Source of the DNA: Clostridia bacterium | GTDB lineage: Bacteria > Bacillota > Clostridia > Christensenellales > Aristaeellaceae | NCBI GenBank assembly: GCA_017465155.1 | Contig: JAFTWV010000132.1 | Span: 1-45,863 of the forward strand | Length of the DNA stretch: 45,863 bases | Direction: 5' to 3' | Shown: positions 1 through 13,621 of the stretch, one piece after another | Numbering within the stretch: the stretch's first letter is position 1 | How the letters are laid out: every line of letters begins with the position of its first letter | Made by a program: the position numbers and the translations under genes | Notes under the pieces: generated by a model | Databases searched by the model: none | The model's input: only the letters and a program-made list of their open reading frames with translations | Told to the model about the DNA's origin: nothing

Positions 1-941
1 CAATGCAGCTCACCTCTTGCCAGCATGGGCTTGAGCAGGTTGCCTGCATCCATTGCGCCGTCGGTCTTGCCTGCGCCGACGATGGTGTGCAGCTCATCAA
101 TGAAGAGGATGATGCGGCCTTCTGACTTTTTGATCTCCGCGAGGACGGCTTTCAGGCGCTCCTCGAACTCGCCCCGGAACTTCGCGCCGGCGATCAGGCT
201 GCCCATGTCCAGCGAGAAGACCGTGCGCTCCTTCAGGGAATCCGGCACGTCGCCGCGCACGATGCGCTGGGCAAGCCCCTCGGCGATGGCGGTCTTGCCC
301 ACGCCGGGCTCGCCGATCAGCACGGGGTTGTTCTTCGTCTTGCGGGAGAGGATGCGGATGACGTTGCGGATCTCCGCGTCCCGGCCGATGACGGGGTCGA
401 GCTTCTGCTGGCGGGCGCGCTCGACAAGGTCAGTGCCGTACTTTTTCAGCGCGTCGTAGGTTTCCTCCGGGGTATCGGTGGTGACGCGGGTCGCACCGCG
501 CACTCCCGACAGCTCCCTGAGGAACTTCGCATCGTCATAGCCCACACGCTTCAATACGTCCTTCACGCGCGGGTTGGGCTTGCCGCACAGCCCCATCCAC
601 ACGTGTTCGACGGACAGGTACTCGTCCTTCATTTGCCGGGCGCGGGCTTCGGCCTCCAGCAGCGCCTTTTCGAGGTCGGGGGAGATATAGAACTTGTCTG
701 CCTCACGTCCAGGCCCGGATACGCGGGCAATGCGGCTGACCGCGTCGGTCAGGGCCGCGCGCAGGGAATCGCAGGATACGCCGCACCGGGTCAGCAGCTG
801 CGGGATAAGCCCCGCTGCGTCTTCCGTCAGGGCGAGCATTACGTGCTCCTGATCAACGCTTTGATGGCCGTATTCCACCGCGATCTGTTGTGCGCGCTGG
901 ATGGCCTCGATCGTCTTCTGGGTAAACTGGTTCATATTCAT
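1..941 (-). CDS. clpB: ATP-dependent disaggregase ClpB (5' part; cut by window edge)
   Basis: This encodes the first 313 codons of a ClpB/Hsp100 chaperone; the rest lies beyond the left edge. Two Clp N-terminal repeats span about residues 1-145. The first AAA+ module follows, with Walker A GEPGVGKT at 210-217 and Walker B IILFIDE at 277-283. ClpB hexamers pull polypeptides out of aggregates together with DnaK. The linker and the [11 protein letters not shown] region read as ClpB rather than ClpC, but the middle domain that would settle this is not in the window. I chose the ATG at 941 because AGGAGGT lies 7 bases upstream; a second in-frame ATG is at 935. The gene has a consensus promoter and a CtsR-type operator, so heat-shock repression by CtsR is expected. 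Confidence 0.93.
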
Positions 942-1078: not shown

Positions 1079-1104
1079 AAGCTCCGTCTGGCATGACGGA
1101 GCTT
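1079..1104. repeat. duplicated terminator hairpin, copy 1 (flank of element A)
   Basis: This 26-base palindrome (stem AAGCTCCGTC / GACGGAGCTT, loop TGGCAT) is repeated exactly at 1340-1365, on the other side of the 235 bp element. On the minus strand this copy is followed by TTTTC, so it is the one that still looks like a working terminator of the toxin-antitoxin transcript. Confidence 0.85.
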
Positions 1105-1339
1105 CAGTGTGTCGAAAAAGTGGCTGCGGCCACTTTTTCGAGAAGGGGAAGAGGTTCCGCTTCTGCGGAAGCGGGCATTTTTCACTGTCAGCCAAGGCTG
1201 ACGGCCGTGAAAAATGTAAGGAATGGTTTCGTCTGATGCCGAAACCGCCCCGCCCGCGCGGCAAAGCCCCGCGATACGATTACAGTCAGAGGGCCTGCGG
1301 GCCCTCCGACACCTCCCGTGAAGCTTTTTTGACAGTCTG
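1105..1339 (-). mobile_element. multi-hairpin noncoding element, copy A
   Basis: This 235 bp element is roughly 90% identical by eye to the minus-to-plus counterpart at 13360-13596. Read on the minus strand it starts CAGACTGTCAAAAAAG and ends CTTTTTCGACACACTG, so the ends form imperfect inverted repeats of about 16 bases. Inside is a chain of hairpins: a GGAGGGCC-type stem (with one mismatch here), GGTTTCG/CGAAACC, a long stem closed by ATTTTTCAC/GTGAAAAAT, CCGCTTC/GAAGCGG, and a 13 bp stem beginning TCGAAAAAGTGGC. It contains no convincing protein-coding frame. It sits between two copies of the hairpin that follows the toxin gene. Known insertion sequences rarely give duplications this long or palindromic, so the mode of movement is unclear. 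A structured RNA is also possible. Confidence 0.8.
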
Positions 1340-1365
1340 AAGCTCCGTCTGGCATGACGGAGCTT
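1340..1365. repeat. duplicated terminator hairpin, copy 2 (flank of element A)
   Basis: This is an exact 26-base copy of 1079-1104. It begins four bases after the toxin stop codon when read on the minus strand. The T-run that normally follows a terminator is missing here, because CAGACTGTC of the element follows instead. Confidence 0.85.
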
Positions 1366-1369
1366 TTGT

Positions 1370-1699
1370 TTACAGCATATATCCCTGCCGCAGAATGCTG
1401 ATCCAATTCCGCTTGCTGTAGAGGAAACGGACGATCTGCACGCATGCGCGCTGTTCATCCACACAGTAAAACAACAGGTAATTGTTGATCGGTGCAAACC
1501 GGATCTGCCACATTTTCAGCACAGCATCATCAGCGATGGCGAACCGCGCCGGATATTCGGACAGAGCATCCACGCACGATGCCACTTCATCCACCAGATC
1601 AAGCGCTGCCTGCGGATTCAGCAGCACATGTTCGATGTAGCCGACCGCCTCCTGCACATCGCGCTGTGCCGCGCCCGTCATTCGCACCTCGTAGCTCAT
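1370..1699 (-). CDS. ParE/RelE-family toxin
   Basis: This 109-residue basic protein has the plasmid-stabilisation toxin pattern: an N-terminal helix (AQRDVQEAVGYI), a central ALSEYPARF segment and a C-terminal strand pair ending VQIVRFLYSKRNW. The family comprises mRNA interferases (RelE/YoeB) and gyrase poisons (ParE). Motif reading alone does not separate them, although the Y-x-R-x(2)-W-like C-terminus is common in ParE-like members. The ATG overlaps the antitoxin stop as ATGA, giving one translationally coupled operon with the antitoxin first. The original terminator hairpin after this gene was duplicated around element A. Confidence 0.82.
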   Translation of the reverse strand: MSYEVRMTGAAQRDVQEAVGYIEHVLLNPQAALDLVDEVASCVDALSEYPARFAIADDAVLKMWQIRFAPINNYLLFYCVDEQRACVQIVRFLYSKRNWISILRQGYML

Positions 1700-1959
1700 T
1701 TTCCGATTCCACCCCGGATTTCCGCCAGCACATCCGCCGCCGGACGCGTACTGCCGCGGACTGCGTCGTCCAGCCCCTCGCGCAGCTTGCTGTACAGCTC
1801 ATACCGCCCCATCAGCTGCTCGTAGGCTTCTATGCTCATCACCGCCAGATCGCCTTTACCGTTCCGGGTGATAAACACCGTTTCTCCATGCGTATGGCAG
1901 AAATTCGAGATATCATTGTACCCATTGCGCAAATCCGCGCTCGACCGAATCGTCGGCAC
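1696..1959 (-). CDS. Phd/YefM-family antitoxin
   Basis: The product is about 87 residues with the Phd/YefM pattern: PTIRSSADLRNGYNDIS, then TVFITRNGKGDLAVMS and IEAYEQLMGRYELY. The N-terminal half of this family binds DNA and autorepresses; the C-terminal half wraps the toxin. The start is uncertain. I chose the GTG at 1959 because AAGGCGGTG lies about six bases upstream. A GTG at 1968 and a TTG at 1986 are also in frame. The stop overlaps the toxin ATG by four bases, and a consensus promoter lies just upstream. Confidence 0.82.
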   Translation of the reverse strand: MPTIRSSADLRNGYNDISNFCHTHGETVFITRNGKGDLAVMSIEAYEQLMGRYELYSKLREGLDDAVRGSTRPAADVLAEIRGGIGK

Positions 1960-1987
1960 ATCATTCACCGCCTTTCCTGATAACAAA

Positions 1988-13334: not shown

Positions 13335-13359
13335 CGCCCGGACTTCAAAAGTCCGGGCG
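13335..13359. repeat. duplicated terminator hairpin, copy 1 (flank of element B)
   Basis: The palindrome CGCCCGGACTT / AGTCCGGGCG with a short A-rich loop is repeated exactly at 13597-13621. On the minus strand this copy is followed by TTATTTTT, so it still looks like a terminator for the minus-strand secreted-protein gene. Confidence 0.85.
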
Positions 13360-13596
13360 CAGACTGTCAAAAAAAGCTCTATGGGAGGTGTCGGAGGGCC
13401 CGCAGGCCCTCCGACTATAATCGTATCGCGGGGCTTTGCCGCGCGGGCGGGGCGGTTTCGGCTTCAGCCGAAACCATTCCTTACATTTTTCACGGCCGTC
13501 AGCCCTGGCTGACAGTGAAAAATGTCCGCTTCCGCAGAAGCGGAATCCCCTCCCCTTCTCGAAAAAAGTGGCTGTAGCCACTTTTTCGACAAACTG
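13360..13596 (+). mobile_element. multi-hairpin noncoding element, copy B
   Basis: This 237 bp counterpart of element A starts CAGACTGTCAAAAAAAG and ends CTTTTTCGACAAACTG. Five stems are visible: 13390-13415 (GTCGGAGGGCC / GGCCCTCCGAC, loop CGCA), 13454-13475 (GGTTTCGGC / GCCGAAACC, loop TTCA), 13483-13525 (outer ACATTTTTCAC / GTGAAAAATGT, inner GTCAGCC / GGCTGAC), 13525-13544 (TCCGCTTC / GAAGCGGA, loop CGCA) and 13560-13588 (a 12-13 bp stem, loop TGTA). Stems are more perfect here than in copy A. The element lies between convergent genes and between two copies of a hairpin unrelated to the one at copy A. No transposase gene is nearby. Confidence 0.82.
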
Positions 13597-13621
13597 CGCC
13601 CGGACTTCAAAAGTCCGGGCG
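13597..13621. repeat. duplicated terminator hairpin, copy 2 (flank of element B)
   Basis: This is an exact copy of 13335-13359. Its stem extends further because the element end ACAAACTG pairs with CAGTTTGT on the outer side, giving about 19 paired bases. Confidence 0.85.

Follow-up and report, generated by a model that had tools for sequence, protein, structure and literature searches.

A noncoding element with IS1182-type ends that very probably duplicates the whole palindrome into which it inserts

Introduction

The IS1182 family is reportedly given target repeats of 0–60 bp in ISfinder. In the accessible parts of two papers, its members are described as targeting palindromes (PMC5678879, PMC4923244). 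IS1272 deletes the stem-loop, according to the text available to us of one of them (PMC5678879, Wan et al. 2017), and IS1272/TnSha1 are found in terminator hairpins, in both orientations and without duplication, according to that of the other (PMC4923244). Duplication of the whole hairpin is drawn as a hypothetical pathway b in Fig 13 of the former (PMC5678879, accessible part), and a table row for an IS1182 element appears, in the available portion of another source, to give a 4-bp repeat (PMC3281130). Our searches of the open-licence literature found no description of whole-palindrome duplication as the rule for IS1182.

Here we describe a 235-bp noncoding element of a Clostridia bacterium. 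It is very probably a MITE of an IS1182 subclade that duplicates the whole target hairpin on inserting into palindromes, and it would be mobilised in trans. It resembles IS1272 and TnSha1, as far as the available text describes them, in the transposase family, in having hairpin targets without a consensus and in using both orientations; the targets of those elements are in part terminators confirmed by RNA-seq (PMC4923244, PMC5678879). The two differ in outcome: the stem-loop is deleted without duplication there and is duplicated here. Pathway b, drawn in the accessible part of PMC5678879 as a possibility rather than demonstrated for an element, fits the pairs of filled and empty sites and the 42 loci presented below. 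RUP, BOX and other bacterial MITEs are likewise short, noncoding, hairpin-rich intergenic repeats, but the comparison is by description only, and the part of the source available describes for them neither a hairpin-sized target duplication nor a link to IS1182 (PMC10969869). The family and its palindrome preference are known; whole-hairpin duplication as a regular outcome is not documented in the papers that we found, and the element also has a structured core that is spread through the family of its host.

Results

The element and its setting

The window (the whole stretch of DNA analysed, 45,863 nucleotides) is contig 113 of the host genome (G000), a 2.80 Mb assembly of 136 contigs that is 68.5% complete. 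A 26-bp palindrome with 10-bp arms (AAGCTCCGTCTGGCATGACGGAGCTT) is present twice, in identical copies that start 261 bp apart. The gap between them is filled by a 235-bp element with CAG as its first bases, CTG as its last bases and imperfect terminal inverted repeats of about 16 bp (CAGTGTGTCGAAAAAG and CAGACTGTCAAAAAAG). This confirms the arrangement proposed in a sequence-only reading of this DNA, namely a 235-bp noncoding element between exact copies of a 26-base hairpin. The element is short and lacks a transposase gene, as expected of a MITE, and the open reading frames that cross it are, by our reading, chance frames. The window holds a second copy, at a different palindrome, and the features are as follows.

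1079–1104, no strand: left copy of the duplicated 26-bp target palindrome (exact repeat, 10-bp arms)
1105–1339, plus strand: 235-bp noncoding MITE, CAG...CTG (repeated in the genome; boundaries from copies with unlike flanks)
1105–1122, plus strand: left terminal inverted repeat, IS1182-clade type (score 19.5 with the IS-end matrix, 4th of 91,692 positions)
1212–1318, plus strand: conserved three-hairpin core (covariation and covariance model R1)
1322–1339, minus strand: right terminal inverted repeat (score 26.7 with the IS-end matrix, 1st of 91,692 positions)
1340–1365, no strand: right copy of the duplicated 26-bp palindrome (exact repeat)
13335–13359, no strand: 25-bp palindrome, unlike the first, in the copy adjoining the second MITE
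13360–13596, minus strand: second MITE copy in the window (L018), 237 bp, sharing 93% identity with the first (ends in 2nd and 3rd place among 91,692 positions)
13597–13621, no strand: other copy of the 25-bp palindrome of the second MITE

To the left of the first element lies the start of a Clp-type ATPase gene (3–941, minus strand; Clp_N and AAA). To its right, a ParE-type toxin gene (1370–1699, minus strand; PF05016) faces the right palindrome, next to a PhdYefM antitoxin gene (1696–1986, minus strand; PF02604). Folded as single-stranded DNA, the unit of palindrome, element and palindrome reaches −90.5 kcal/mol, against −49.0 ± 4.0 for 200 shuffles (z −10.45). At the other extremity of the window, from 45407 (plus strand) to the contig end at 45863, another left end, CAGCATGTCGAAAAAGTG, scores 17.8 and ranks 5th of 91,692 positions. 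It directly follows a palindrome, GGACGCAGATGCGTCC; what comes after it looked unlike the MITE, and the contig stops before the corresponding right end.

Copies and their flanks

A blastn search of the host genome with the unit gave 63 match rows, 30 of them at E ≤ 7.2e-35. Among the 30 host loci fetched, both ends were found by motif in 13 copies, and contig ends cut many of the others. We tested the flanks of 12 copies for which both were available (L004 and L005, near contig ends, were left out and L006 was added), counting as positive a direct repeat at the element ends with a score of 12 or more. Such a repeat was present in 11 of the 12 copies, and the eleven sequences were all unlike, in line with the prediction that each copy would lie between different duplicated hairpins. 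The twelfth, L009, has two different palindromes at its ends. It is a 252-bp copy (contig C130, 1502–1753) with an insertion in a core loop, its two palindromes are unrelated, and it is likely a recombinant. Two other host copies, L006 and L012 (contigs C125 and C7), are nearly identical in left flank and palindrome, pointing either to duplication of the locus or to strain variants within the assembly.

The same test in relatives found the direct repeat in 11/11 copies in G009 (a twelfth fetched copy, L183, is cut by a contig end and lies outside this count), 2/2 in G001, 15/17 in G065 and 3/3 in G073. In G006, assessed by eye, the repeated hairpin was seen in four of five copies (one degraded), and no left end was located for the fifth (L188). 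A stricter test requiring an ungapped stem gave 9/12 in the host, 8/11 in G009, 1/2 in G001, 11/17 in G065, 3/3 in G073 and 1/20 in G012. In this last genome the repeat was kept on both sides in only 2 of the 20 copies by the first test. Our interpretation is that the left palindrome has usually decayed there, as the right one often persists together with its T run. Most of these copies (L279–L298) have no left palindrome, and many seem to begin just past a stop codon with a T-run terminator on the right; they are possibly old copies absorbed into the 3' untranslated region.

Two variants of the MITE in G001 (L191, L192) carry, nested inside, an extra hairpin-rich module starting with ATCGGCCAGCAACGAG, a repeat of another kind. 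Many copies of the MITE lie at host contig ends (C2, C4, C7, C49, C65, C103, C127, C133 and others), so the element probably breaks the host assembly. We also tried to assign gene orientation around the copies by the longest open reading frame, and discarded the result as unreliable in G+C-rich genomes.

An autonomous IS1182-family element as probable partner

A search of the host genome for PF13751 (DDE_Tnp_1_6) found no transposase in an assembly that is 68.5% complete and broken at repeats. Such a transposase is present in 2 of 18 genomes of the genus, the sister genome G001 included. L061, from this sister species, is a complete element, 1,493 bp long and bounded by CAGCCTGTCAAAAAAG and CTTCTTTGACAAGCTG; it encodes a 479-aa transposase and is flanked by two exact copies of a 25-bp palindrome. 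Its protein is identical to the one encoded by L063, in a Clostridia MAG from goat caecum. The transposase belongs to the IS1182 family (NCBIfam NF033551, 415.1 bits for a cut-off of 270) and has the domains DUF772, DDE_Tnp_1 and DDE_Tnp_1_6. The sequence-only reading had envisaged an autonomous relative with the same ends, and L061 is one. That reading had also contrasted the locus with common DDE transposons, a contrast that fails because the partner is itself a DDE enzyme, of a family whose palindromic targets are published. At the second PF13751 locus of the genus (L062) we found neither a palindromic repeat nor the end motif. Across 82 aligned transposases D148 (numbered as in L061) is conserved in all, and D282 and E409 in 99%; these three residues would form the putative catalytic triad.

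To compare the ends, we built a matrix solely from related autonomous IS elements (48 distinct ends) and scored every position on either strand of the window, 91,692 in all. Ranks 1–4 fell to the four MITE ends present there. The MITE and the autonomous elements are also alike in target behaviour, with whole-palindrome duplication in both. The autonomous CAG...CTG elements of the IS1182 clade (L061, L067–L135, L194, L199, L200) share these ends and this duplication; they are about 1.5 kb long and carry a transposase gene, whereas the MITE carries none. The MITE apparently borrows the enzyme of an IS1182-family transposon. A search of a phage collection gave no match.

The three-hairpin core

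The core of the element (1212–1318) recurs in other elements and folds as three hairpins. In a first alignment (A1), made of 25 of the 34 distinct full-length core sequences, 98.2% of the cells pair, compared with 37.5–53.2% when the partners are slid, and 14 of 29 pairs show changes on both sides. A covariance model of the core has matches in 17 of the 18 genus genomes (2–77 each; none in G004). Applied to a sample of the family, own genus included, it detects the core in 45 of 120 genomes and in 26 of 50 genera. A second alignment (A2; 100 matches, 99 chosen loci, 88 distinct) has changes on both sides in 27 of 29 pairs, but it was fitted to the model and so leans towards the model's structure.

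The two-sided changes in both alignments, the invariant unpaired stretches and the presence in 45 of the 120 sampled genomes would also suit a core that functions as a one-strand RNA, i.e. a mobile 3'-untranslated-region RNA for which the transposon is only a vehicle. We consider this unlikely. One doubtful terminal pair accounts by itself for 54 G.U cells; without it, we counted 21 G.U and 25 A.C cells out of 2,387, so that neither strand is favoured. Selection on a one-strand RNA should favour G.U, and since G.U does not exceed A.C the palindromes look maintained at the DNA level, through function or through palindrome-perfecting mutation. Nor did any Rfam family reach its gathering score in the window (0 matches). 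With lax thresholds, six sub-threshold Rfam hits appeared at 1060–1400 (RsaE and others), which we took as chance.

The duplication across the IS1182 clade

We kept 80 of 187 relatives and added L061 and L062, giving 82 IS loci. Both ends were located by motif in 59 of them, the other 23 being affected by contig edges or motif variants (one of these, L098, does have a palindromic repeat). An end-anchored duplication of a whole palindrome was present in 42 of the 59 loci, with lengths of 19–64 bp and a mean of 29.5; 38 are perfect, and 40 targets are distinct (L061 and L063 share one, L070 and L135 another). As a control, we paired the left flank of each locus with the right flank of another, which gave 4 hits in 3,422 pairings, all between target-sharing loci. 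The other 17 loci fall, by our reading, into a few kinds. In eight the two palindromes differ (L081, L083, L087, L099, L101, L105, L106, L108), a sign that copies may have recombined. The palindrome copies of L075 and L117 are imperfect, contig ends truncate L104, L110 and L141, and the element ends are uncertain in L065, L092, L128 and L131.

The edges of the duplication were profiled in 40 loci (L063 and L135 removed). Inside, bases pair in 72% of cases at the edge and in about 93% further in; outside, pairing is 50% and 65% at the first two places, mostly as A.T pairs, and then 33–38%. At the level of sequence, the targets are palindromes without a common motif, and the length of the repeat is close to that of the stem-loop. 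Of the 42 targets, 12 have only a right-hand T tract, 9 only a left-hand A tract, 10 both and 11 neither. The palindrome is therefore the selected feature, in either direction. The description of the element as terminator-targeting holds in that a hairpin is targeted and is often a terminator, but it is too narrow in view of these counts. We had also considered an orientation fixed by the terminator, as the first copies seemed always to have the T run on the right; the 42 loci showed no clear bias. After insertion, one palindrome would likely keep the T tract and the other lose it.

Eleven plasmid elements were added (L193–L195, L197–L204). The record edge truncates L193. Of the ten that could be assessed, six have the palindromic duplication (L194, L195, L197, L199, L200, L204) and four do not (L198, L201, L202, L203), so the trait is not general in the IS1182 family. 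L201, one of these four, is bordered by a palindrome on the right alone. The duplication reaches Clostridia, Bacilli, a Fusobacteriota species and a Rhizobium; it was not seen in the single ISCfr1 and single Sinorhizobium copies examined, whose ends differ. The ISCfr1-type element (L203) is likewise annotated by NCBI as IS1182-like, but it has 26% identity over 86% of P0001 and ends of the GGnnCTGTTGAA kind, and the palindromic repeat is absent in the one copy examined. The chromosome of Chakrabartyella piscis, a complete genome from a cultured strain, carries ten IS copies (L069–L076, L093, L135), nearly all at different palindromes.

Empty sites

For ten host sites of the MITE we made a chimera of 200 bp of left flank, one hairpin and 200 bp of right flank, searched it against the 18 genus genomes and took 30 of the matches as loci. 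Six alignments cross the hairpin. They cover two of the ten sites, L007 and L017, both empty in relatives, and the MITE end motifs were found in none of the six loci. The L007 site is empty in G009, G011, G006 and G017, with contiguous flanks and one diverged hairpin. The L017 site is empty in G009 and G010, with one palindrome that in G009 differs from the host at two positions; this site is weaker than it appears because the upstream gene differs between the host and the two relatives. For the other eight sites there was no hairpin-crossing alignment among the loci fetched.

Exact pairs were obtained from Enterococcus plasmids, for a related IS with 47.6% protein identity to P0001. One of these insertions, L195 in NC_017962.1, lies between two palindrome copies where NZ_CP102071.1 has a single one, and its joined empty site is identical to the latter over 308/308 bp; at least 80% of this joined site is covered by 9 of 126 matching records. 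At L194, in NZ_LR135288.1, a 45-bp palindrome is duplicated and the empty site has one copy. At least 80% of its joined site is covered by 307 of 363 matching records and the twelve matches listed are all identical over 247/247 bp. The palindrome here runs a few base pairs past the duplicated part. The sequence-only reading had predicted empty sites with one hairpin, and these were found at two of the ten MITE sites and at the two related IS insertions.

The second hairpin could also have been gained after an insertion that fell beside a palindrome without a long duplication (as an IS1272-like element, IS200/IS605 or a group II intron), through template switching or recombination. IS1272, of the same family, does replace stem-loops, as the accessible text of PMC5678879 describes, and the two different palindromes at 8 of 59 IS loci indicate that flanks recombine. 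Yet 38 of the 42 duplications are perfect, the filled and empty pairs are exact, and later addition is not expected to copy the exact target so regularly, which leaves this explanation very improbable. A recent insertion, missing in a sister strain, with the whole duplication already in place would contradict it, and the L195 and L194 pairs are close to such a case. That the two hairpins are old tandem terminators or parts of the element, which merely lies between them, is hardly credible: the palindromes do lie directly outside the ends in every copy, but they vary between copies while the element does not, and empty sites have one palindrome, as the L195 and L194 pairs demonstrate.

Two identities were considered and rejected. 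Replacement of the IS1272 type would delete the stem-loop and leave no duplication; here hairpins are duplicated and empty sites hold one. IS200/IS605 (HUH) elements are not known to make a target duplication; here hairpin duplications are present and the partner is a DDE transposase.

Discussion

Our preferred reading remains a MITE of an IS1182 subclade that duplicates its target hairpin. The sequence comparisons made here show dispersed copies, ends matching those of the autonomous elements, palindromic targets and, through the filled and empty pairs, a duplication made by insertion. From these we infer mobilisation in trans, an extruded form of the target, and the place and order of the strand cuts. 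A DDE transposase supplied in trans would bind the CAG...CTG ends, and the element would go into a palindrome in the DNA that has probably extruded to form a hairpin or cruciform. Each 3' end of the element would be joined to one target strand close to a foot of the stem, the two joins lying at opposite feet, and filling of the gaps would copy the whole palindrome. An insertion would consequently have its own target hairpin on either side, and the duplicated stretch would have about the length of that hairpin. The earlier suggestion of nicks at the two bases of a cruciform followed by fill-in is supported in that joining at the two feet fits the drop in pairing; the cleavage chemistry is the part that we infer.

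Hairpins may be both target and cargo of this system. The DDE clade would duplicate palindromes recognised by shape, and the core hairpins of the MITE would act at the DNA level, perhaps in mobility or target capture. We advance this tentatively and with some doubt. If it is true, the three hairpins of the core are kept as Watson–Crick palindromes across many genera, and perhaps the element must adopt a folded or cruciform form to move or to capture its target.

For DDE elements, the length of the target duplication is usually regarded as fixed by the enzyme. Here, the length of the duplication tracks the secondary structure of the target itself, and the recognition of extruded hairpins in living cells is therefore directly testable. 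Past insertions can also be traced in sequence by the signature of the duplicated hairpin. The duplication accounts, too, for a class of noncoding repeats next to terminators, which break assemblies and are open to misreading as double terminators or small RNAs.
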